Origin: Candidatus Parvarchaeota archaeon UBA446
Lineage (GTDB): Archaea > Nanobdellota > Nanobdellia > Parvarchaeales > Parvarchaeaceae
DNA length: 45,373 nt
Reading direction: 5' to 3'
Assembly (NCBI GenBank): GCA_002503215.1
Contig: DARG01000030.1
Coordinates: forward strand, 1 to 45,373
Below are positions 16,145 to 40,326 of the stretch, piece by piece; the first letter of the stretch is position 1; every line of letters begins with the position of its first letter. The translations under genes and the position numbers were made by a program. A model generated the notes under the pieces. It did not search any database and was not told where the DNA came from. It was given only the letters and a program-made list of their open reading frames with translations.

Positions 16145-18169
16145 CTAAACTTCCAAAGATTTTAACAAAGGTTCTATATCTGTAATAGAATTTCCATTTT
16201 CATCGGAAATTTTCTGAGACAATGGTGGGGCCATATTTCTTTTTTGGAGTCTGTCCTCAAAAGTATCTGGATCTTCATTTTCAAAGAATATACCTGTGTG
16301 CATATTATCTGCGTCTTCGCTTAGAAGCATATTGATTGCATTTATCTTTTTCTGGTTTACTTCTTCCTTGTTTAACGGGTCTTTTACGTACCCGTCGTAT
16401 TCCTGCGGCAAAGATTTCAAATGAGTATTGAACCAGGAGGCTGAAGTAAACTCCTCGTTGTAAGTAGGACAGCCTTGCATTATATCAACTAATGCAAGAC
16501 CTTTATGTTGTATGGCTTTAACCATTATGTCAGAAAGTTCATTGACTTTATAACTTTGGGACCTTGCTACGAAATTGTAGCCGGCCATTATTGCCAGTGA
16601 CAAAGGATTCAGGGCACCGTTTATATTTGGAGCTGGAAGCGACTTTGTTTTCCTGCCTTCCGGCAAAGTCGGACTGGCCTGGCCTTTTGTAAGCGAATAG
16701 ACTCCGTTATCGTGTATAAACAATTTTATATCAGTATTCCTTCTAGCGGCGCTTATAAAGTGTCCTACGCCTATTCCATATGTATCTCCGTCTCCGCTAT
16801 CCAATACAACTGTCAATTCGGGATTGGCAAGCTTTATTCCTTCCGCAAAAGGTATTGGTCTTCCATGGAGAGTGTGAACTCCATTAACATTTACAAGATG
16901 CGGCAATTTAGACGAACAGCCTATGCCTGAAACGATTACCGTCTTGTGAGGATCAAGATTTGCTTTTACTATGGCATTCTTGACCGCTAAAACTATTCCG
17001 CTGTCGCCGCAGTTATGCAGAGTCGCAGAATTGCTGACATACGAATTTACATCGGCTACCTCAAAATTATACACTGGTCCTTCATAATTGAAATAATCTA
17101 AGCTTCTTATCCTCAAGTATATGTAATTTTCATCCATCAAAGATAGTACGTTGGCATTTTTTGAGGTCTTTGATTCTTTAGAAACAACTCCCAAAACCTT
17201 CATTAATTTATTGTAATGCCTGTTCTTTACTTCTACAGAATATGATTTTTTACGCATGCCATATGCTTTATTCTCATAGACATAAGGAATAACGCCCTGT
17301 CTTAGCAACAACATTTTTATCTGTTCTTTAAGCACGGGTGAGATAGTCTTATAGCCCGCTCTTAGACTCTTTGTATTAACATAGCCGTCTCCCTTCCAAA
17401 GACCTAAAAGAAGTGCTTTTTGCTTCTCTTTAGGCAGTAACACGAATTCGTGCGGTATCCTTTTTTCTGCTGCGCAATCACCAAACCAATCCATAAATAT
17501 TTCGGATAGATAGGATGAACTTACATGTACTTCAATCGAACCTTTTTCTTTGGACCTGTCTTTAATCGTAGCCTTTAACCCAAAAACTTTATTGAAAAGA
17601 TTTTTAGCATCTCCAGCAAGATCGTATTCATCGCCGCCGAATGTCAGCTGTATCTCTCTCCTATGCACATTGCCTTCGGCTATATAATATCCCGCTAACC
17701 TAAGAAAGTTTTCGTCTATTTTAACTTCTTTAGGTAATTCTTTGCTTCTAGTGTCCTTATCTTTCTTTTCATAGACTAAAGGAAGCGAATCCATATCTTT
17801 TTCCGGCTTCATTATCGGATAAGCTACGTAATCTCCGATTCTAAGCTTTCCGGTCTCGACCCACTCTGTTCTTAGAATACCTTTGGCAACGTTCTCTTTT
17901 TTGACTGTGAGGACAGGATGCTCATCCGTTAAAGTAGTCTCTCCAAAGTACGCTGTACGCAACTTGTATATCCTACCTCTATGTATATGTGTCATCACTT
18001 TATCTATTTTATGGAAGTAACCGTCGCTTCCTAGAACTTTGTCTCCTTCCTTGAATGCCTGTATGGCCTTTGCAGAAGGATTTCCTATTATTGTGTTGTC
18101 AGGCAGCAGGCACCCTGGACACCAGTCATTAAATTCATTTGAAGTCAAACTTTTGACATCAGTAACCAT
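16145..18169 (-). CDS. korB: 2-oxoacid:ferredoxin oxidoreductase beta subunit, interrupted by an intein
   Basis: The 674-residue precursor contains a 307-residue thiamine-diphosphate-binding beta subunit split by an intein (residues 20-386). The N-extein ends DWCPG and the C-extein resumes with CGDSGIVLAV, restoring the family motif CPGCGD. Other hallmarks are HGRPIPFAEG and the thiamine-diphosphate motif GDGDTYGIGVGHFISAARRN. With the alpha subunit it oxidatively decarboxylates a 2-oxoacid to acyl-CoA and reduced ferredoxin. 2-oxoglutarate is inferred from citrate synthase next door and succinyl-CoA synthetase nearby. It overlaps the korA stop by 11 bp. Activity depends on protein splicing, because the intein splits the conserved CPGC segment. 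Confidence 0.93.
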   Translation of the reverse strand: MVTDVKSLTSNEFNDWCPGCLLPDNTIIGNPSAKAIQAFKEGDKVLGSDGYFHKIDKVMTHIHRGRIYKLRTAYFGETTLTDEHPVLTVKKENVAKGILRTEWVETGKLRIGDYVAYPIMKPEKDMDSLPLVYEKKDKDTRSKELPKEVKIDENFLRLAGYYIAEGNVHRREIQLTFGGDEYDLAGDAKNLFNKVFGLKATIKDRSKEKGSIEVHVSSSYLSEIFMDWFGDCAAEKRIPHEFVLLPKEKQKALLLGLWKGDGYVNTKSLRAGYKTISPVLKEQIKMLLLRQGVIPYVYENKAYGMRKKSYSVEVKNRHYNKLMKVLGVVSKESKTSKNANVLSLMDENYIYLRIRSLDYFNYEGPVYNFEVADVNSYVSNSATLHNCGDSGIVLAVKNAIVKANLDPHKTVIVSGIGCSSKLPHLVNVNGVHTLHGRPIPFAEGIKLANPELTVVLDSGDGDTYGIGVGHFISAARRNTDIKLFIHDNGVYSLTKGQASPTLPEGRKTKSLPAPNINGALNPLSLAIMAGYNFVARSQSYKVNELSDIMVKAIQHKGLALVDIMQGCPTYNEEFTSASWFNTHLKSLPQEYDGYVKDPLNKEEVNQKKINAINMLLSEDADNMHTGIFFENEDPDTFEDRLQKRNMAPPLSQKISDENGNSITDIEPLLKSLEV
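17012..18112 (-). other. Intein with LAGLIDADG homing endonuclease, inside korB
   Basis: This 367-residue intein (precursor residues 20-386) has a complete splicing set: nucleophile Cys20 at the start (CLLPDNTIIGN), block B TDEHP (81-85), block F near VYNFEVADVNSYVSN (366-380), terminal His385-Asn386, and Cys387 as the +1 nucleophile. The centre carries a two-motif LAGLIDADG endonuclease: LAGYYIAEG (158-166) and LLLGLWKGDGYV (253-264), each with its acidic residue. It is therefore likely both splicing- and homing-competent. The site lies in codons for CPG|CGD, where an intein-free allele would be recognised and cut. Confidence 0.93.
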
Positions 18170-28324: not shown

Positions 28325-29341
28325 ATGATAGTGTTTAGTTCGGCTGTAGCCGGCTCTGACAGAATAAAACTAGAGGAAAAAACCCTAAAACTCGCGAAAA
28401 AAAACAGAAAGAGTATAGAAATAATAAATCTTATAGATGAGATGATAAAAGCCGCAAATAAAACTAACCCTTACATAAATTCCAAAAACTTGCCAAATCT
28501 TGATATTGAAAACGTAAGGATACTCAAAGAGAGTGCGCTTAGAGAGATAAAATCCCGCATAGATAAAAATCCTAAGATAGACTACATAATAGACGGCCAT
28601 ATGTCTTTCTGGTGGAGAGGCGGGCCTTTGGGGCTGATAAATTCAAAAGACATGAAACTTTTAAATCCGGATTTTTTTATTTCCGTTGTAAACGACCCCA
28701 AGACAATTACGAACACACTAAAAAGCAAAAAATCCTGGGAAGACAAAAATGTAGAAGAGTATGAAATAGCATTATGGTCCGAATCTGAGATTTATACTGC
28801 TGATTTGATAAGTAATTCTGTAGGAAAAAAGAATTACATAATAGGTTCACTTGAAGACCCAATGACACTATTTGAACTGATGTATAGAAAAGATAAACCA
28901 AAGGCCTATATCAGTTTCACAATTGAACACAGAAAAAGTGGCTATGAACAATTGAATTCTTTTATAAAAAATATAAAAAAATATCTCATAGTTTTTAATC
29001 CTATGGCTGTAGATATAAACGCATATAAATCTGCCGAAGAAAATGAAAGATTAAAACAGCTCATATTCAACCAGACTGTAAGAAGAGATTTTCATTTTAT
29101 AGACCAAACTGATTTGACAATAGTATACCTTTCTGATTTAGTTTATTCTAGCGGCGTTGACGGAGAGAGAATGCACGCTCACTTCACAGGTAAAAAAGTT
29201 TTACTGTACTTCCCATTTGAGAACTACAGTCCGTTTACACCTTATTTTGTAGATAACATGTATAAAGACGAGAAAGAATTATTAAATGAAATAAGGTTAA
29301 TGGCAAAGAAGTACGCAGAAGACCAAAGATCCAGAAGGTAA
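28325..29341 (+). CDS. Adenylate-kinase-like domain fused to a nucleoside 2-deoxyribosyltransferase-like domain
   Basis: This protein is 338 residues from the ATG at 28325; a GTG at 28310 would add five. Residues 1-170 follow the archaeal adenylate-kinase-like layout: strand MIVFSSAVAGSDR, helices, then YIIDGHMSFWWRGG and the LNPDFFISVVNDP segment. The P-loop is degenerate, with no GKT/S, so nucleotide binding is uncertain. Residues about 190-338 resemble the deoxyribosyltransferase fold (KAYISFTIEHRKSG, then DLVYSSGVDGERMHAHFTGK). The combination suggests nucleotide sensing or salvage, but this is fold-level inference. It follows the fumarase/aspartase gene on the same strand. Confidence 0.6.
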   Translation: MIVFSSAVAGSDRIKLEEKTLKLAKKNRKSIEIINLIDEMIKAANKTNPYINSKNLPNLDIENVRILKESALREIKSRIDKNPKIDYIIDGHMSFWWRGGPLGLINSKDMKLLNPDFFISVVNDPKTITNTLKSKKSWEDKNVEEYEIALWSESEIYTADLISNSVGKKNYIIGSLEDPMTLFELMYRKDKPKAYISFTIEHRKSGYEQLNSFIKNIKKYLIVFNPMAVDINAYKSAEENERLKQLIFNQTVRRDFHFIDQTDLTIVYLSDLVYSSGVDGERMHAHFTGKKVLLYFPFENYSPFTPYFVDNMYKDEKELLNEIRLMAKKYAEDQRSRR

Positions 29342-29404
29342 GCCACTTCGAGCTACCACACAAAACTTTCAGATTTATATAGATGACAATTGAAAACAGA
29401 GCCT

Positions 29405-29420
29405 AAAAAGTATTTATACC
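29405..29420 (+). promoter_or_regulatory. BRE/box A upstream of the first repeat protein
   Basis: AAAAAGTATTTATACC is a strong archaeal BRE-TATA. The first 15 bases recur exactly, on the minus strand, in front of the 129-residue gene (complement of 31425-31439). Here the start codon is about 57 bp away and is preceded by a Shine-Dalgarno-like AAAGGAAGT (29461-29469), so this message should carry a leader. Confidence 0.5.
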
Positions 29421-29476
29421 TTTAATATTCTTAATATCCTATTAAAAAGTAATTAAAATTAAAGGAAGTAAAAACT

Positions 29477-30253
29477 ATGGTAATAAAAGAAAACAATGGA
29501 ATTAAAGAACCTGCCGGATGGAGTACATCTACTAAGACTTCATTAGAGGAGATAATATTGGAGGTAACGAAAGGAGTTTGGGATGACGAAAAACTTAATA
29601 TTATCAGTTCGGCACTGGAACAGATTTCACATTTACAAGGAGATTCTGCGGCCAGAGCAGCTGCAGCCGCTATAGGAAAATACAAAGAAGAAGTTGGTAC
29701 AAAACTGGCTGCCTATATGGCAAGAGGGTTATGCAGTATTAGCGGATTAACTGAATATTATGATAAAGAGTCCACAAAAAATGCAGCTAAGATAATGTCA
29801 CTTGACTATGTAATGGATAGAGTAAGAGAGTACAAAGAAGAAAACATCGTAAATTGCAGAAGCATATTCAAGAGACATAAAGCAGATGAGTATGAACAAG
29901 ATAAAGGAAAAAGTATAATATTTTTATTGACAGAAATCGCCGGTTATACCGGAAGCAAAGAAGCCGTGATGGAAGCGGACACGACAATCAAAATGTATGG
30001 GTTGGAAGTAGCTGATGAACTAAGAAATATCGCTTATCGTACAAGGGACGCATTAGCTACAAAAGTAGCGGCTATAACGATAAGAACGCAAGGAGAAAAA
30101 TACGGGAAGAGAGTAGCCTCTAATACTGCTTATGGGCTGGAATTAATCACAAAATACTCCAAAAACCCAGATGATATAATTGACGCGGCTCTTAAGACTA
30201 ACTGGAATAAAAGGATGATAAAAATAAGCGGCGGCCCTATCTTAAAAACTTAA
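29477..30253 (+). CDS. Helical-repeat protein of unknown function, paralogue of 31695-33215
   Basis: This 258-residue protein has no signal peptide or membrane helix. It consists mostly of short paired helices in roughly 40-residue units, HEAT/ARM-like in pattern, with recurring phrases: AAAAAIGKYKEEVG (61-74), AAKIMSLD (103-110), EIAGYTGSKEA (153-163) and NIAYRTRDA (184-192). The same phrases occur in the same order in the 506-residue protein 1.4 kb downstream, so the two genes are paralogues. Such repeats usually form protein-binding surfaces. I recognise no enzymatic motif. It has its own promoter and is followed at once by a hairpin/T-tract terminator. Confidence 0.75.
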   Translation: MVIKENNGIKEPAGWSTSTKTSLEEIILEVTKGVWDDEKLNIISSALEQISHLQGDSAARAAAAAIGKYKEEVGTKLAAYMARGLCSISGLTEYYDKESTKNAAKIMSLDYVMDRVREYKEENIVNCRSIFKRHKADEYEQDKGKSIIFLLTEIAGYTGSKEAVMEADTTIKMYGLEVADELRNIAYRTRDALATKVAAITIRTQGEKYGKRVASNTAYGLELITKYSKNPDDIIDAALKTNWNKRMIKISGGPILKT

Positions 30254-30280
30254 AAAAGGCACTTTCTGGCCTTTTTATTT
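30253..30280 (+). terminator. Hairpin with T-tract after the first repeat gene
   Basis: The arms AAAAAGGC and GCCTTTTT (8 bp, 8-base loop) begin on the last base of the stop codon and run into TTTTTATTT. Archaeal termination mainly needs the T-tract. The stem is an extra that would also protect the RNA end. Confidence 0.5.
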
Positions 30281-30332
30281 AGTCTTGATAATGGTGTAAC
30301 AACCTTAAGTTCAATAAAGTGACTTTCCTGAA

Positions 30333-31013
30333 CTAATCTTTAATCTGCTGCTCCCATGTCTTTTGGATATTATTTAATAAGCGGCTACTTGGAATCAGCG
30401 GCATTGCTTCCATGTAAAAATCATCCTTATATTTGCCAAAATTTTCAAATCTTTTCCCCATTGTGCTATACAACCTAATCGTTTCAATTTTACTTTCATA
30501 TATCCTTATTTCGTCCTCATACATCATTGAATTCGATAAGCATATCTCACAAAAAAGACCGCCTCCTGATGTTCTCATAAGTTGCGTTCTATAAACTCCT
30601 TTATCTATCTTTTTTAATTGCTCTTTATAGTTGCTTATTATGTACCTTGGGTCCAGGCCAAGGCCATCTTCAAGCAATGACTGGTAAGCAGAAGTATTTT
30701 CTTTGATCCTTTCTGGATCCATAATTTCAACGCCATCGTTCATATTATATATCTTAGATATAGAGTAATCATCGTTAAAGTCTATTTTATTATCATAGGT
30801 TAATTCATCTATATCCGTGCGTTTACTTATAAATAGGGCTTTTGGACTTGTTGTAGCCGTGTGCCCTTTGAATATTCTTTGATGCTCTGGAACGTAAAGC
30901 AATCCAACCCTAGGATTATACGATTTACCTGAATATGGTAAGTACACATAAGGAATCGCAATCCGTTCTGATTTCTCAAAATCATTTAGGGCCTTTTCTA
31001 ACTTAGTTACCAT
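30333..31013 (-). CDS. Hypothetical protein, 226 residues
   Basis: I do not recognise this protein. It is soluble, with mixed helix and strand and no signal or membrane segment. Notable stretches are PYVYLPYSGKSYNPRVGLLY near residue 20-39, which looks like beta strands, and RTSGGGLFCEICLSN (about 149-163), which holds two cysteines as CEIC. No second CxxC pair follows to make a zinc finger. It starts 2 bp after the stop of the 129-residue gene, so the two are an operon. They sit head-on inside the region bounded by the two helical-repeat paralogues. Confidence 0.65.
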   Translation of the reverse strand: MVTKLEKALNDFEKSERIAIPYVYLPYSGKSYNPRVGLLYVPEHQRIFKGHTATTSPKALFISKRTDIDELTYDNKIDFNDDYSISKIYNMNDGVEIMDPERIKENTSAYQSLLEDGLGLDPRYIISNYKEQLKKIDKGVYRTQLMRTSGGGLFCEICLSNSMMYEDEIRIYESKIETIRLYSTMGKRFENFGKYKDDFYMEAMPLIPSSRLLNNIQKTWEQQIKD

Positions 31014-31015
31014 TC

Positions 31016-31405
31016 TTAACTTAATTCATCCGTGGTTTTTGTTTTCTCTCTTGTTTCTTCATTCATCTTCTTTTCCTCTTCAAGTAGTTTAATTACATTA
31101 TAATTGTTTTCCCTAAGATTCAGCTCCATATATTTTAACACAGTAGGATAAGCGGAATTTATAATAAATCTAGGGGTGATAGCTATAACCCCTGTCATAT
31201 AATGTTTTATACATTCTCTCTTAAATTCTTTAAATGGTTCTCTATCTTTTTCATAGGCGGCAAGGAAATCCTTTGCTCTATTCTCTCCCCATTCTTCATA
31301 CATTTTATTAGCTATATTATATGCGTCATCTTCATGAACAAAACCTTCATTTTCTTTGTTGTATAGTATACCCATCAATCCTTTTTTTATTTCTTTTTCT
31401 TCCAT
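31016..31405 (-). CDS. Hypothetical protein, 129 residues
   Basis: This small, charged, mostly helical protein matches no family I know. The first half has an acidic helix pair (HEDDAYNIANKMYEEWGENR), the middle a more hydrophobic helix (YMTGVIAITPRFIINSAYPT), and the end a Lys/Glu-rich tail. It is the first gene of a two-gene operon with the 226-residue protein. Its box A (complement of 31425-31439) lies about 25 bp before the ATG, predicting a leaderless message. Confidence 0.65.
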   Translation of the reverse strand: MEEKEIKKGLMGILYNKENEGFVHEDDAYNIANKMYEEWGENRAKDFLAAYEKDREPFKEFKRECIKHYMTGVIAITPRFIINSAYPTVLKYMELNLRENNYNVIKLLEEEKKMNEETREKTKTTDELS

Positions 31406-31599
31406 GTTAATGTTATAGATATAGGTCTGTATAAATACTTTTTTTCATTCGTAATGGACTTTTGCATAAATACCTAATTTTACCACGAATACATTGTATT
31501 CTGCTGTTTTTATCTACTCACTACACAATAGTTTTTTATTTGAATCCATCTTTTTGGATGAGAAACTTGATTTTCGTAACAGCCGCACAAAAATTAAAG

Positions 31600-31607
31600 T
31601 TTATATG
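31600..31607 (+). promoter_or_regulatory. Box A upstream of the 506-residue repeat gene
   Basis: TTTATATG is centred about 29 bp before an ATG at 31633 and about 90 bp before the main gene's ATG at 31695. Transcription from it would start almost exactly on the short reading frame at 31633-31674. Confidence 0.45.
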
Positions 31608-31632
31608 TGTTTTAGATTCTTTAGTACTAAAC

Positions 31633-31674
31633 ATGATAAGCAAGTTAAAAGCTGAAGTCGAAGAATTTGAATAA
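31633..31674 (+). CDS. Possible 13-residue leader peptide upstream of the repeat gene
   Basis: ATG at 31633 opens a 13-codon frame (MISKLKAEVEEFE) ending 20 bases before the 506-residue gene. It is placed where a leaderless start would be expected relative to the box A at 31600-31607. It may be a translated upstream frame that influences the main gene, or chance. A longer 70-codon frame containing it (from 31462) looks random. Confidence 0.3.
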   Translation: MISKLKAEVEEFE

Positions 31675-31694
31675 AAGGTTATCCAGATCGAATT

Positions 31695-33215
31695 ATGGAA
31701 ACTAACAAATCATTGGACGAGCTATTAGAAAATGTAAAAAGATCGAAAGGTAAGATTTCAGATAAAGGCCTTATTTCGCCGTCTGATCTGTTTGATAAAA
31801 TAACTATATACACTAAGGATCCTAAAGCGGCTATAGCAGTCGCTGCGGTGGTAGGAAGGTATAACGAAAAAACTGCCACTGCTATATTTAATTTATTTTC
31901 ACATTTTGCTTTCTACGACAGAAATCCGGAAGTTATAATAAAAGCGGCTAATATAATGTCACTTGACGAGATAGTTAATGTGGTAGTAGGATACAAAGGA
32001 GACTACTCGGATTGTATCGTTGATTCATTGTCAAATATCGCTAGATACACTAGAAACCGGGAAGCTACTATTGCAGCTGCTGAAAAAATAGGGCAAAATA
32101 AAGGAATAAAATCTGTTTATGTTGCTATTATGTTGTTAGAGATTGCTTATCGGACAAGACATATAGGGTCCAAGAAAGCAATAATGACTACATGCCATCT
32201 ATTGGATAAAGCTGGAAGCAGAATTTTTGATATGTTGGATAAAGACACAATAATAAAACAGTATAAAGAGTTGACAGAATTGTTGGATAATTCGTATGAG
32301 AAAAACAGAAAAGAGTACTCTCTTAATCTAGAAAAAGGAGAAAAACTGAAAATAGATGTGGGAAAACTACCTTACTATTCTCTTATATCTGTAATAGGTT
32401 CCAGAGATCCTTCTAATGAAAAAAATGCTGTATCCACTGTTATGGAGATAGCAGGCGAAAAGGCTGTCAATAGAGCAAGAAATGAGTTTAATTCGCATTA
32501 TAAAAATTTGAGAAATACCATAATATCATATATCAACGATAATGATATAAATGGCGCGTTGAAGCTGTTAAAAGACACGAAAAATGAGGCCATAAATGAT
32601 ATTGTTAATGCCTCAGAGTACAGAAATGGATCAAGAATAGTAAAAGGAAAGAATGTATTAGAAGCAGTGGAAAGTAACAATCCATTGGATTATAATTCTA
32701 GTGTACAAATAGCATGTGTATATTTACCTGCCAACCATAAAGGGGGTATAGTAGATTACTGCAAGGATGAAAGATTCAAGCTGATAAGATACGACGTAAA
32801 CGGCAATACTATAGGAAGTGCAATCTGCTACTTGGAAGATGGCAACTTCTTAGTAGATTCTGTGGAAGGGCATAGGACATTTAGAAAGAAGAGGATATTT
32901 GATATAGTATATAAGGACTTAGTTAATAGAGCTAAAGAATACCATGCTAAAAGAATAATTTTCAGTGTTGATGGGTATAATGAAACACCAAGAAAATTTA
33001 TAGAAAATATTAAAGAATATGGATTGAAGTTAGATAAAACAAAAATGGCTCTAGACACTGAAGGGTATCTTGAAGCTAAGCAAAACCCATATCTTACCAT
33101 CTATGGTGTAACGTCTATAGACGCGGCTAGACAACTCGAATCTAACAAAGGAGGAGTACAAGGGTACATGACAAAAGGATACTGCATAGACTTTCCTCAT
33201 AATAAGAGAAAATAA
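31695..33215 (+). CDS. Helical-repeat protein with extra C-terminal domain, unknown function
   Basis: This 506-residue protein is paralogous over its first 170 residues to the gene at 29477. Matching phrases are AIAVAAVVGRYNEKT (46-60), AANIMSLD (84-91), NIARYTRNREA (114-124) and EIAYRTR (149-155). A charged middle (about 180-330) has further helices. Residues about 340-470 form an alpha/beta domain with strands GSAICYLEDGNFLVDSVEG, then RKKRIFDIVYKDLVNRAKEY and RIIFSVDGYNET. That order resembles a GNAT fold, but the acetyl-CoA loop glycines are missing. No signal or membrane helices. A peptide-binding scaffold with a regulatory or degenerate enzymatic end is possible; function is unknown. 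Confidence 0.75.
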   Translation: METNKSLDELLENVKRSKGKISDKGLISPSDLFDKITIYTKDPKAAIAVAAVVGRYNEKTATAIFNLFSHFAFYDRNPEVIIKAANIMSLDEIVNVVVGYKGDYSDCIVDSLSNIARYTRNREATIAAAEKIGQNKGIKSVYVAIMLLEIAYRTRHIGSKKAIMTTCHLLDKAGSRIFDMLDKDTIIKQYKELTELLDNSYEKNRKEYSLNLEKGEKLKIDVGKLPYYSLISVIGSRDPSNEKNAVSTVMEIAGEKAVNRARNEFNSHYKNLRNTIISYINDNDINGALKLLKDTKNEAINDIVNASEYRNGSRIVKGKNVLEAVESNNPLDYNSSVQIACVYLPANHKGGIVDYCKDERFKLIRYDVNGNTIGSAICYLEDGNFLVDSVEGHRTFRKKRIFDIVYKDLVNRAKEYHAKRIIFSVDGYNETPRKFIENIKEYGLKLDKTKMALDTEGYLEAKQNPYLTIYGVTSIDAARQLESNKGGVQGYMTKGYCIDFPHNKRK

Positions 33216-33319
33216 GATAAAACAAAAAATTAAAAATCAATATGTTATTAGGAAGAACGCATACATTACTATAATATTATTATAAATAATTATTATATGT
33301 TGACAAATATATCATTAAT

Positions 33320-34012
33320 TCACTTTTTAAGATGAACTATTCTCAATGCACCAGAATAAACACTATCTACAAACTTGAAAAGATTATCGAATAACTTAGA
33401 CTTCGATATCAATGCATACATTATGAAACTTATACCTACACCCAGTACTATACCTGCCAGTACATCCGATGGGTAATGTACACCGACGTATACTCTGGAA
33501 AAACACACTAAAGCTGCCTCTAAAACAAGCAGCAGAGAGTACCTCTTTCTTAAAAAGAATATTACTATCGCCGCACCTGCTGCAACTATAAGAGCATGCC
33601 CAGACGGGAATGAAGAATCAAAATCTTTTGGTACTAGCACATGAACGTTTGACAATGTCAAGAACGGTCTTGGTCTATAATAAACCTGTTTAAGTGTTAA
33701 CCCAACTATTATTATAACTATGAAAACAAGAATAAGCAATAATGCTCCTCTTTTCGCCTTCTCGTTTTTGAATGCATCTCCTAAAATCCACATTAAAGCG
33801 ACTACTGGCACCCAGAAATAGGCCCTACCATATGTTGTAAGCTCGGCAAAGAAGGTGTTAAACGCAGGTATATTTATGTTATTTATTGAACGAAAAATGC
33901 TTACATCAAGCGAATGATCTATATTAAAGTAAACGAGAATAAATATAACAGCAAACACAACTACGAGTATTATACCAATATACAAAATTTTTCTTAAATC
34001 TGATTTTAACAT
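33320..34012 (-). CDS. PAP2-family membrane phosphatase
   Basis: This 230-residue integral membrane phosphatase has about six helices. The three-part PAP2 active site is complete: Lys108-x6-Arg115-Pro116, PSGH (136-139) and Ser172-Arg173-x5-His179-x3-Asp183. These enzymes dephosphorylate lipid or isoprenoid phosphates at the outer face. In archaea, recycling of a dolichyl/undecaprenyl-type diphosphate carrier for glycosylation is a likely job, and it would suit the sequon-rich surface protease at 769. The substrate is not shown by sequence. It is divergent from the Cas4-like gene, with 51 bp between starts. Confidence 0.9.
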   Translation of the reverse strand: MLKSDLRKILYIGIILVVVFAVIFILVYFNIDHSLDVSIFRSINNINIPAFNTFFAELTTYGRAYFWVPVVALMWILGDAFKNEKAKRGALLLILVFIVIIIVGLTLKQVYYRPRPFLTLSNVHVLVPKDFDSSFPSGHALIVAAGAAIVIFFLRKRYSLLLVLEAALVCFSRVYVGVHYPSDVLAGIVLGVGISFIMYALISKSKLFDNLFKFVDSVYSGALRIVHLKK

Positions 34013-34063: not shown

Positions 34064-34774
34064 ATGCAAAATGATGATCCTTTGGTAGATGTAGATATAG
34101 GTGCTGTTATAGATGAATATCTTGAAGAAGAATCCAGACCAAAAAAGATAGGTGTTTATTATCCAAGTGAAATAGGAATGTGCATCCGTAGAAGCTATTA
34201 TTCTTATTTTATATCGAAACCTACAGAAACTAAAGCGCTTAGGATATTTGCCTTAGGTAATAATGTACATGAGTTCATAGCAAAGGCCCTTAAAGACTCG
34301 GAAAAATTCGCAGTTGCTGAAGAGGAAAAACCTATAAAAATAGAATACAAAGGAGAGGATACTAACTTTGCGATATACGGCAGAATCGATGATTACGTAG
34401 AAACCAAAGAAGGAAAAAAAATAATAATAGAAGCCAAATCCACTGGAGATATAAACAAGGTAACCGAAGCGGATCCAAAACATAAGATGCAAATCTCCCT
34501 TTATCTGGCAGCACAGCCGGCAGATTACGGCTTATTGGTTTACGCTGACAAAAAGAACCTGGAAATAAAGCAGTTCAAAGTTGAGTACAACAAAGAAGAG
34601 CATGAGAAGGTAATGCAAAGGTTTAAAGATTTGGATTATCATTTAAGAAATAAAATTCTTCCGCCTGCAGAGTACTATTTTGACAATAACAAAGTCTGGG
34701 AATGCAAGTACTGCCCTTACTATCAAGAGTGCATGCAGGCTATTGCGGACAAAAATACTTTAAGTAACTACTAA
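34064..34774 (+). CDS. Solo Cas4-like Fe-S exonuclease (PD-(D/E)XK superfamily)
   Basis: This 236-residue protein has the whole Cas4/AddB-type pattern: Cys40 early, His69 in NVHEF, Asp109 in GRIDD, Glu123-x-Lys125 in IIEAKS, QxxxY (143-147), and Cys214, Cys217 and Cys223 near the end. Together with Cys40 these would hold a [4Fe-4S] cluster. Such proteins are metal-dependent single-strand DNA exonucleases. There are no CRISPR repeats and no other cas genes in the window, so a repair role or a free-standing Cas4-like role is more likely than adaptation. Confidence 0.88.
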   Translation: MQNDDPLVDVDIGAVIDEYLEEESRPKKIGVYYPSEIGMCIRRSYYSYFISKPTETKALRIFALGNNVHEFIAKALKDSEKFAVAEEEKPIKIEYKGEDTNFAIYGRIDDYVETKEGKKIIIEAKSTGDINKVTEADPKHKMQISLYLAAQPADYGLLVYADKKNLEIKQFKVEYNKEEHEKVMQRFKDLDYHLRNKILPPAEYYFDNNKVWECKYCPYYQECMQAIADKNTLSNY

Positions 34775-38177: not shown

Positions 38178-39071
38178 ATGAAAGAAGTCACTTTAGATAA
38201 TTTTCGTGATTTTGCCAGAACCCACAATTCCGTTAAAATAGAAGACAACACCATAGAAATTGGCATGCAAAAGCAGATCAAAATGCTTCAACCTACTGAT
38301 TTTTCGCCAGAGACTACGACGGTCTGGTCATTTCCAAAACGTGGAGATTGGGCTACACACTATCTTAATTCAAAATATAGAGGAAATTGGGCACCACAGA
38401 TCCCTAGAAATTTAATTTTAGAATACACAAACCCTGAAGATATAGTTTTAGACCCTATGAACGGTTCTGGGACCACACTAATTGAATGTAAACTTCTTGG
38501 AAGAAATGGCATTGGAGTAGATATAAATGAAGAAGCTATAATGATTGCATTAGACAGATTAAATTTTCAGGCACACGAATTACCAAGTTCTGAAATAAAA
38601 ACTTTTGTTGGTGACGCTAGAAATCTTAATTTAATAAAAGACAACGCTATTGATTTAATTCTTACACACCCACCATATGTAAATATCATTTCTTACACTA
38701 AAAATAGAGTTGAGGGTGACCTCTCTAGCATATCTAGCGTTTCTGAATTCATTGAAGAAATAAATAAATTAGCTGTAGAATTCTTTAGAGTTATAAAACC
38801 AGGCAAATACTGCGCGATATTGATGGGCGATACTAGGCGGCATTCACATTATATCCCAGTTACTTTTAGAACCATGCAAGCATTTTTGGAAGCCGGTTTT
38901 GCACTAAAAGAGGACATAATAAAGTTGCAATGGAACATGCAATCTACAAGGCAAAATTGGGCCGGAAAACAAAACTTTTACAAGATAGCGCATGAGCACT
39001 TGTTTGTGTTTAGAAAACCTACACATGATGAAAGGCTTTCAGAATTAAAAGAAAGTATTAAATGGTGGTAG
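38178..39071 (+). CDS. DNA methyltransferase (N4-cytosine/N6-adenine class)
   Basis: This 297-residue SAM-dependent enzyme has motif I DPMNGSGTT (92-100), motif II-like GVDIN near 113-117 and the catalytic motif IV as THPPYVNI (163-170), a variant of [DNS]PPY. The C-terminal half (CAILMGDTRR, YKIAHEHLFVFRKP) matches type II modification enzymes. The acceptor (N4-C or N6-A) and the target are not readable. No obvious nuclease gene adjoins it, so it may be a solitary methylase, or share the locus with the Dam-type enzyme 340 bp downstream. Confidence 0.88.
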   Translation: MKEVTLDNFRDFARTHNSVKIEDNTIEIGMQKQIKMLQPTDFSPETTTVWSFPKRGDWATHYLNSKYRGNWAPQIPRNLILEYTNPEDIVLDPMNGSGTTLIECKLLGRNGIGVDINEEAIMIALDRLNFQAHELPSSEIKTFVGDARNLNLIKDNAIDLILTHPPYVNIISYTKNRVEGDLSSISSVSEFIEEINKLAVEFFRVIKPGKYCAILMGDTRRHSHYIPVTFRTMQAFLEAGFALKEDIIKLQWNMQSTRQNWAGKQNFYKIAHEHLFVFRKPTHDERLSELKESIKWW

Positions 39072-39166
39072 ATTAGAATTTACGTTTACTTTCTTGGTAA
39101 AATCCAATGCAACGATAAGGAAGAAATTATATAGATAATAATGTAATTTGAAGTGTATTACTAATC

Positions 39167-39307
39167 TTAAAGCTTATTTTTCTTCCGCGGTGTATCCCAG
39201 TAAGGACTTTTACAATGCGGACACACGAGTGGTTTTTTGTGCTGACCTCTGGGCAGCCAAACGTGGCCACACCTTTCGCATTTAAAACCATCTAAGACTG
39301 TTTGCAT
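39167..39307 (-). CDS. Small zinc-ribbon protein, 46 residues
   Basis: This short gene encodes 46 residues starting MQTVLDGFKCERCGHVWLPR. Two zinc pairs, Cys10/Cys13 (CERC) and Cys29/Cys32 (CPHC), are followed by KSPYWDTPRKK. The CxxCGHxWxPR...CPxCKSPYWDxPR pattern is widespread in archaea, often as a stand-alone zinc ribbon of unknown function, sometimes next to toxin or nuclease genes. Its box A (complement of about 39325-39337) lies about 25 bp before the ATG and overlaps an inverted repeat TATACC-TTAG-GGTATA (39334-39349). Confidence 0.8.
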   Translation of the reverse strand: MQTVLDGFKCERCGHVWLPRGQHKKPLVCPHCKSPYWDTPRKKNKL

Positions 39308-39369
39308 ATTATTCTATGAAAAGTTTGGATTTATATACCTTAGGGTATATTACTAAAATGAAAAGCTTA

Positions 39370-39404
39370 TATATACTTAATAATAATATACTAATAAGTA
39401 TATA
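39370..39404. promoter_or_regulatory. 10-bp inverted repeat at the Dam-type methylase promoter
   Basis: TATATACTTA (39370-39379) and TAAGTATATA (39395-39404) are perfect inverted copies, 25 bp centre to centre, ending 7 bases before the methylase ATG at 39412. The left arm covers the box A and the right arm the expected transcription start. A dimeric repressor bound here would shut the gene off. The region is AT-rich, so chance is possible. Confidence 0.45.
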
Positions 39405-39411
39405 ATAATAT

Positions 39412-40326
39412 ATGAACATCAAAAAACTGCGGGAATTAAGAAAGCAAAGACTGTTGGAATCAATAAAGATACCTAAATATAATAAAGATGTTACTATAGA
39501 CATGCCATTCGAAGTTCCAACATTTGTAAAATGGGCCGGAGGAAAGCGCCAGCTATTACCTCAACTCTCTAAATTTTTACCTAAGAAGGTGGAGGGTTAC
39601 TTTGAGCCGTTTATAGGAGGAGGTGCTATGGCCTTCTACATAATAAAAAAATATAACCCTGAACGAGTTTTTCTTTCCGACATAAATGAAGAACTAATTA
39701 ATGCTTTAAACATTATTCGAACGAAGACAAATGAACTAATGACTATTCTACTGCAGTATAGAAATTCACATTCGGAAAAGTTTTATTACCAAATGCGTGA
39801 TAAAGACCCCATAAAACTTAATGATATAGAACGCGCTGCTAGATTTATCTATTTAAACAAAACTGGATATAATGGGTTGTATAGAGTAAACTCGAAGGGG
39901 AAATTTAATGTACCGTTTGGTAGGTACAAAAACCCATCAATATTCTCGGAAAAAGATTTTAGAGAGATATCCTATCTTTTAAAGAATGCGCATATAGAAG
40001 TTAAACAATTTTACGAAGCAGTAAGTAACGCTAAATCTAGTGACTTTATTTATTTTGACCCGCCTTATTATCCTTTGAAGAAAGGCAAGAACTTTACAAA
40101 ATATACTAAAGGCGATTTTTTAGACAAAGAACAAGAAAAATTAGCTGAAGTATTCAAAGACTTAGATAGAAGGGGTTGCAAAGTTATGCTAAGTAACAGT
40201 GATACGGATTTCATAAAAGGCTTGTATACGGACTATATTATAAACAAAGTAAAAGCTAAAAGAATGATTAACTGTGATGCAACTAAACGAGGAGAAATAG
40301 ACGAGGTTGTAATCACAAATTATTAG
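39412..40326 (+). CDS. Dam-family (D12 class) DNA adenine methyltransferase
   Basis: This 304-residue enzyme is a D12-class N6-adenine methyltransferase. The SAM-binding N-terminal motif FVKWAGGKRQLL (38-49), EPFIGGGA (65-72) and catalytic DPPY (216-219) are intact, as is the NKTGYNGLYRVN segment of DpnM/Dam enzymes. GATC-type targets are common in this class but not provable here. About 30 residues precede the usual start; an internal ATG at residue 31 is an alternative. It converges with a frameshifted gene that might have been its restriction partner. Confidence 0.92.
   Translation: MNIKKLRELRKQRLLESIKIPKYNKDVTIDMPFEVPTFVKWAGGKRQLLPQLSKFLPKKVEGYFEPFIGGGAMAFYIIKKYNPERVFLSDINEELINALNIIRTKTNELMTILLQYRNSHSEKFYYQMRDKDPIKLNDIERAARFIYLNKTGYNGLYRVNSKGKFNVPFGRYKNPSIFSEKDFREISYLLKNAHIEVKQFYEAVSNAKSSDFIYFDPPYYPLKKGKNFTKYTKGDFLDKEQEKLAEVFKDLDRRGCKVMLSNSDTDFIKGLYTDYIINKVKAKRMINCDATKRGEIDEVVITNY

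Follow-up and report, generated by a model that had tools for sequence, protein, structure and literature searches.

The 45,373-nucleotide contig DARG01000030.1 of Candidatus Parvarchaeota archaeon UBA446 (assembly GCA_002503215.1; hereafter the window) carries four genes of obscure kinship between positions 29,477 and 33,215. Their open reading frames were re-checked and have the positions, strands and lengths given in a first-pass annotation of the sequence. The largest gene encodes a 506-amino-acid (aa) protein in which a solenoid of two-helix repeats is joined to a C-terminal domain with a predicted GNAT fold. This protein belongs to a multi-copy family of DPANN archaea, and the family is the subject of this report. 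The features of the locus are as follows.

Ends at 29341: AAA_17/adenylate-kinase-like gene, left flank of the block
29342..33319, no strand: block of ~4 kb absent at the same site in relatives, between the AAA_17/adenylate-kinase-like and PAP2-like genes
29405..29419, + strand: 15-bp block AAAAAGTATTTATAC before the 258-aa gene, exact match, probably a B recognition element (BRE)/TATA core
29477..30253, + strand: 258-aa solenoid-only paralogue with degenerate repeats and no GNAT domain
30333..31013, - strand: gene of a 226-aa protein, LolA/LolB/LprG/RseB-like predicted fold, no signal peptide by eye
31016..31405, - strand: gene of a 129-aa protein of a small Parvarchaeum-type family, leading the pair with the 226-aa gene
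31429..31443, - strand: 15-bp block AAAAAGTATTTATAC before the 129-aa gene, exact match, probably a BRE/TATA core
31695..33215, + strand: gene of the 506-aa repeat-solenoid and GNAT-fold protein, the core of the finding
31818..32159, + strand: solenoid repeats of the 506-aa protein (residues ~42-155), three matches to the repeat hidden Markov model (HMM)
32277..33089, + strand: conserved C-terminal GNAT-fold domain of the 506-aa protein (residues 195-465), HMM match of 408.6 bits, aligned with ten relatives
33320-34012: PAP2-like phosphatase gene (named by eye), right flank of the block

The inserted block

The two genes that flank the block are neighbors in related genomes. Thirteen corresponding stretches were fetched for comparison. 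Seven contain both flanking genes, four contain the Cas4 side only, and the remaining two, from the more distant genomes G018 and G015, have other genes after fumarase. The gene order in relatives is fumarase, the AAA_17/adenylate-kinase-like gene and the PAP2-like gene. Because the latter two abut in all seven comparable relatives, the window carries an insertion of ~4 kb. Transposon-like borders were sought, and no clear terminal or target-site repeats were found at the edges of the block.

The first-pass annotation regarded the four genes as one module that might recur in other genomes. Two features favor a single system: the genes are neighbors within a single insertion, and a promoter-like block is common to two of them. 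The distribution of the genes argues against it. The block is missing from the site in 7 of 7 relatives, and UBA446 is the only one of 55 genomes (28 from its own genus, 4 from the rest of the family and 23 from other families of the class) to have 506-, 129- and 226-type genes together. Counting UBA446 itself, relatives of the three genes occur in 19, 6 and 5 genomes, respectively. Elsewhere, 129-type genes (five genomes) and 226-type genes (four genomes) occur singly and never together, although these searches used single distant queries and may have missed some relatives. UBA446 also has a second string of 129-, 129- and 226-type genes on contig C2 (L081 4030-5444). No match to the repeat proteins lies on that contig; all such matches in this genome, for the 258- and 506-aa proteins alike, lie on C35 (the window) or C28. 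The module was rejected on the empty site and the missing co-occurrence, and it is very improbable that the four genes operate as one system. The best explanation treats the 129/226 pair as a small operon of its own that occupies the same insertion site.

The 15-bp block is indeed identical before the 129- and 258-aa genes, but it is not confined to the cluster: a third exact copy lies on contig C16 upstream of a gene resembling a glycosyltransferase (by eye), and the genome contains four matches at one mismatch or fewer, compared with three for a backward control pattern. A shared regulon was rejected on the copy before an unrelated gene and on a count so near the control. The block resembles the archaeal BRE/TATA consensus and is probably an ordinary archaeal promoter core.

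The 258- and 506-aa proteins are helical-repeat paralogues, as first proposed, with 29% identity over 204 aligned columns in BLASTP (E = 6e-7, a value for that single comparison). The phrases that they have in common are real and correspond to the consensus of the repeat: GKY/GRY closes helix A, IA..T closes helix B, and AA.IMSLD is the mark of a repeat variant with a spacing of 44 residues. The 258-aa protein matches the family repeat HMM weakly (best 11.3 bits), and its matches elsewhere are partial and confined to the repeat regions of family proteins. It is best explained as a solenoid-only derivative.

The solenoid-GNAT family

Searches with the 506-aa protein returned at least 91 protein clusters, its own included. 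All 39 loci from named genomes are in records titled Parvarchaeota, Nanoarchaeota, Micrarchaeota, Aenigmatarchaeota or Nanohaloarchaea, groups that all belong to DPANN. Among the 55 genomes, the gene is present in 16 of 28 members of the genus and 3 of 4 other members of the family, and in none of the 23 genomes of other families. The original idea of a lineage-specific scaffold plus effector survives as a design, except that a single protein combines the two as domains and that the lineage comprises DPANN in general. None of the four proteins of the block matched Pfam or NCBIfam above curated cut-offs, and literature searches of open-licence papers found no description of the family.

Copy number differs between genomes. 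Genome G004 has three complete family genes and additional pieces, and 13 of its contig ends fall inside family genes, as expected if near-identical copies break the assembly; the family would likewise account for assembly breaks in several of these genomes. Copies in the same genome share DNA stretches of 164-407 bp with identities of up to 97-98%, and internal repeats are often 80-90% identical in DNA. The copies sit between differing housekeeping genes. On contig C16, a methyltransferase gene and a HAD-like gene (by eye) are adjacent, and their homologues in G026 have a family gene between them; in G010, a family fragment adjoins the methyltransferase homologue. Prefoldin- and PfkB-like genes (by eye) border the C28 copy, and these two genes are adjacent in G015. 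Family genes of G004 (L028 7596-17395) also occur among homologues of the antiporter and fumarase genes that precede the block in the window, a placement that may mark a favored region. A tree of 34 C-terminal domains places several copies from one genome as sisters, among them those of the window and C28, and other genomes have copies from separate branches. A viral origin was considered and dropped: the 21 stretches with a motif on the viral contigs scanned included no relative of the family, and PHROGs gave the four proteins only weak matches to families of unknown function (best E 0.004).

The predicted model of a relative, P0014, is helical to about residue 290, and the family repeat consists of 35 residues in two helices stacked as a solenoid. 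Position entropies were calculated from 196 gapless repeats, some of them from the longer variant and offset by 9 residues. Positions 21, 22, 25, 28, 29 and 32 exceed 3 bits, and Y15, A20, L27 and A31 are below 0.8 bits. By the helix limits of the model, all six variable positions fall in the second helix of the pair. First-helix positions 7, 10 and 14 are probably exposed on the other face and stay E or R/K, so exposure alone fails to explain the variation. The eight most variable second-helix positions have 5.7% Trp, compared with 0.2% elsewhere, and 9.2% Tyr, compared with 4.0%. The variable positions are also enriched in Gly, Arg and Asn, with a slightly acidic net charge of -0.41 per repeat. 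Such a face looks more like a protein-binding than a nucleic-acid surface. Counts of distinct octamers at the variable positions (168 of 196) were discarded as evidence, framework strings being as diverse (174 of 196). A helix-pair solenoid with variable second-helix positions is of the HEAT/alphaRep-like kind. HEAT_2 of Pfam reached 24.2 bits in P0014, below its cut-off of 27.7, and matched 2 of 40 members at E <= 0.1; the full-length family profile matched, among solved structures, only designed repeat proteins, over the repeats.

The repeats could instead read nucleic acid in a PPR-, PUF- or TALE-like manner, with the GNAT domain modifying RNA or aminoacyl-tRNA. PPR repeats also have 35 residues in two helices, and some GNAT proteins act on aminoacyl-tRNA. 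We nevertheless regard this alternative as improbable. The PPR code lies at positions 5 and 35 and the variable di-residue of TALE repeats at 12-13. In the family, position 5 is V in 70% of repeats (1.55 bits), position 35 is K in 53% (2.31 bits), position 12 is I in 81% and position 13 is G in 52%. The variable positions, at 21-33, thus lie elsewhere, the code positions vary much less, and the slightly acidic face rich in Trp, Tyr and Gly does not suggest a nucleic-acid partner.

The GNAT-like strand order noted for the larger protein was borne out by the P0014 model, in which the GNAT fold occupies residues 407-563 and is joined by a strand at 292-299. A helical insert of ~100 residues separates the first two strands of the fold. 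Two cysteines, a V-D-S-x-E-G stretch, an R-K pair and other residues are invariant in 11 aligned C-terminal domains, which include loci from Parvarchaeota, Nanoarchaeota, Aenigmatarchaeota and Micrarchaeota records. Acetyltransf_1 matched 12 of 40 members at E <= 0.1 (best E 0.0023). We class the domain as GNAT-fold but divergent rather than as a canonical acetyltransferase, and from its conserved residues we infer that it may be a working but divergent transferase.

The two parts of the protein differ in selection. Codons were compared in 125 repeats from 36 genes, leaving out repeats with gaps or lesser scores, by the Nei-Gojobori method with bootstrapping (63 nearest-neighbor pairs of at least 80% identity). 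The ratio of nonsynonymous to synonymous divergence (dN/dS) is 1.22 at the six variable positions (bootstrap 0.86-1.69) and 0.42 in the framework (0.34-0.51). With 31 disjoint pairs, the values are 1.17 (0.74-1.95) and 0.45 (0.34-0.58), respectively. Raw codon counts, with nonsynonymous to synonymous changes of 203:12 at variable and 189:130 at framework positions, were set aside; they exaggerate selection by scoring codon changes at more than one base as nonsynonymous. For the C-terminal domain, dN/dS was calculated for six pairs of copies, each pair within one of four genomes, and is 0.04-0.24 (0.24 for the window and C28 copies). The three pairs from G004 are not independent of one another, and the G002 pair, with a dS of 1.58, approaches saturation. 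Two copies of G016 differ in their repeat sets, although their C-terminal domains are nearly identical (proportion of nonsynonymous differences, pN, 0.002).

A proposed target-specific modifying protein

With confidence that is evenly balanced, we propose that the 506-aa protein belongs to a DPANN family of proteins that each modify a specific target, the variable solenoid binding it and the GNAT fold modifying it, in conflict or symbiosis. The N-terminal stack of 35-residue repeats would form a solenoid, and the face of the second helices, presumably exposed and variable between repeats and between copies, would bind one particular partner. This partner would most likely be a protein of the host, a rival or an invader. 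The conserved C-terminal domain would then modify this partner with an acyl or related group. Gene duplication, the gain or loss of repeats and substitutions at the variable positions could all give rise to new specificities. The data show the architecture, the predicted fold, the spread in many copies, the pattern of the variation and the contrast in selection; binding to protein, catalysis and the nature of the donor are part of the proposal.

Several observations weigh against this proposal, and the first concern catalysis. In Foldseek, GNAT matches of the P0014 model have E-values of 0.003 or weaker. Acetyltransf_1 does not match the window protein and scores 16.8 bits in P0014, below the cut-off of 20.7, and the C-terminal profile finds no GNAT by sequence among solved structures. 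Because a sequence-level match of that kind is absent, the GNAT claim is carried by the fold comparison. The canonical acyl-CoA loop of GNAT proteins has the consensus R/Q-x-x-G-x-G/A. The corresponding loop of the window protein is EGHRTFRKKRIF, EGHRTFRK or a close variant occurs in nearly all of 40 members, and G-x-G/A is absent from all 40. Since the glycines are missing, the donor may differ or the activity may be lost. The domain would then be a non-catalytic module for structure or dimerization, and the proteins would act by binding alone, as adaptors, decoys or inhibitors. The existence of the 258-aa paralogue, a solenoid that can stand alone, also fits such a role. We consider it unlikely, since the cysteines, V-D-S-x-E-G and R-K are invariant in 11 sequences across several DPANN groups and purifying selection on the domain is strong.

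The second set of observations concerns the variation. The dN/dS at the variable positions is compatible with 1. Variable codons also have more synonymous differences (pS, the proportion of such differences, is 0.255 in variable and 0.134 in framework codons), which makes an origin by mutation or recombination possible. Conserved neighbors were absent from the loci inspected, and no co-conserved partner is known. The family could be a selfish, gene-converting repeat family whose variation is neutral drift without a recognition role, in keeping with copies that multiply at many sites and with the high identity of internal repeats. This alternative is less likely still than a non-catalytic domain. 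The C-terminal domain is held by selection, long intact frames persist, and the variable positions cluster on a single helical face with much Trp and Tyr, which is not what we would expect of a relaxed surface.

Finally, the window copy is not a typical representative. The repeat HMM recognizes only three repeats in it. It fills 5 of 72 positions of the linker (~70 residues), of which 37 of 40 members fill at least 50, and a stretch of ~25-30 residues near its end (~33084-33170, + strand) is absent from the ten other aligned sequences. This copy may be specialized or decaying. As the window locus is an atypical member, the claim of a target-specific modifying family rests on its relatives.

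A broader and rather doubtful possibility is that the family gives DPANN archaea a germline-style repertoire of recognition enzymes. Each solenoid-GNAT gene would mark a different foreign or host protein, and the repertoire would be diversified by repeat shuffling and by selection at a paratope-like face. It would represent an archaeal, retroelement-free counterpart of hypervariable receptor families, acting in symbiont-host conflict or in immunity. The genomes of DPANN archaea are tiny, and these archaea, as far as is known, are mostly host-dependent. Their host recognition and their resistance to rivals are largely open questions, and a multi-copy family in genomes of this size, in which one surface diversifies beside a conserved enzyme-like domain, provides a directly testable candidate for recognition.

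Neighboring genes and known systems

The 129-aa family comprises an alignment of 8 members and 15 proteins in a profile search. In four relatives (G026, G010, G025 and G001), the 129-type gene stands beside aldehyde-dehydrogenase-like and AbiE-like genes (by eye). It adjoins an AbiEii-type toxin gene and its partner at L088 301-2144, L090 8684-10108 and L087 3439-5067; AbiEii was confirmed by Pfam at L088, the sole locus tested, and the latter two were assigned by eye. The leader before the second 129-type gene on contig C2 has TATATCTATAACATTAACATGGAAGA in common with the window copy, which is a sign of duplication. The 226-aa protein is predicted, with moderate confidence, to have a LolA/LolB/LprG/RseB-like fold. 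The LolA superfamily has a half-barrel lipid-carrier fold; the 226-aa protein differs in that no signal peptide was seen in it by eye. A known defense family was sought for the four proteins, and PADLOC gave nothing convincing. The 258-aa protein, the 506-aa protein and P0014 have no match to its defense models, and the marginal local matches of the 226-aa protein to pAgo (0.0073) and of the 129-aa protein to Cas3b (0.0066) were taken as chance.

Other genes of the window were noted in passing. A Cas4-like PD-(D/E)XK nuclease (34064-34774, + strand; PADLOC Cas4 E 8.5e-15) adjoins SufU/SufS-like genes and has relatives in 29 of the 55 genomes, its own included. A 2-oxoacid:ferredoxin oxidoreductase beta-type protein (16145-18169, - strand) is split by an intein with a LAGLIDADG domain; Intein_splicing falls just below its cut-off, and LAGLIDADG_3 is above. 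Two DNA methyltransferase genes, N6_N4_Mtase and MethyltransfD12, lie close together at 38178-40326 (+ strand).

The elements of the solenoid-GNAT protein are of known kinds, and their combination in DPANN archaea appears to be new. GNAT acyltransferases such as RimI, RimL, PAT, VipF and NatD provide the comparison for the C-terminal domain, from which the family differs by its ~100-residue helical insert and the lack of the canonical loop glycines.

The natural repeats of the family resemble engineered binding scaffolds. The alphaRep repeat has 31 residues, compared with 35 in the family. In the family, positions 28 and 32 also vary, and the variant spaced by 44 residues is interspersed. The family proteins are natural, chromosomal and fused to a GNAT-fold domain. 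In the report on alphaRep and thermostable HEAT-like repeats, these are likewise two-helix solenoids with variable positions, which lie at 18, 19, 22, 23, 26 and 30 of the repeat and match family positions 21, 22, 25, 26, 29 and 33 with a shift of three (PMC3754942).

A diversity-generating retroelement was also considered and rejected. Reverse transcriptase PF00078 (E <= 1e-5) was found in none of 17 genus members and in one of 29 genomes overall, all of these genomes being incomplete. According to a report on hypervariable sensor proteins diversified by retroelements, those sensors are similar in combining a variable recognition surface with a conserved domain in many copies (PMC10907252). 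The solenoid-GNAT family differs from them in that PF00078 is lacking from 17 of 17 genus members, and it appears to be diversified through its repeats and paralogues.

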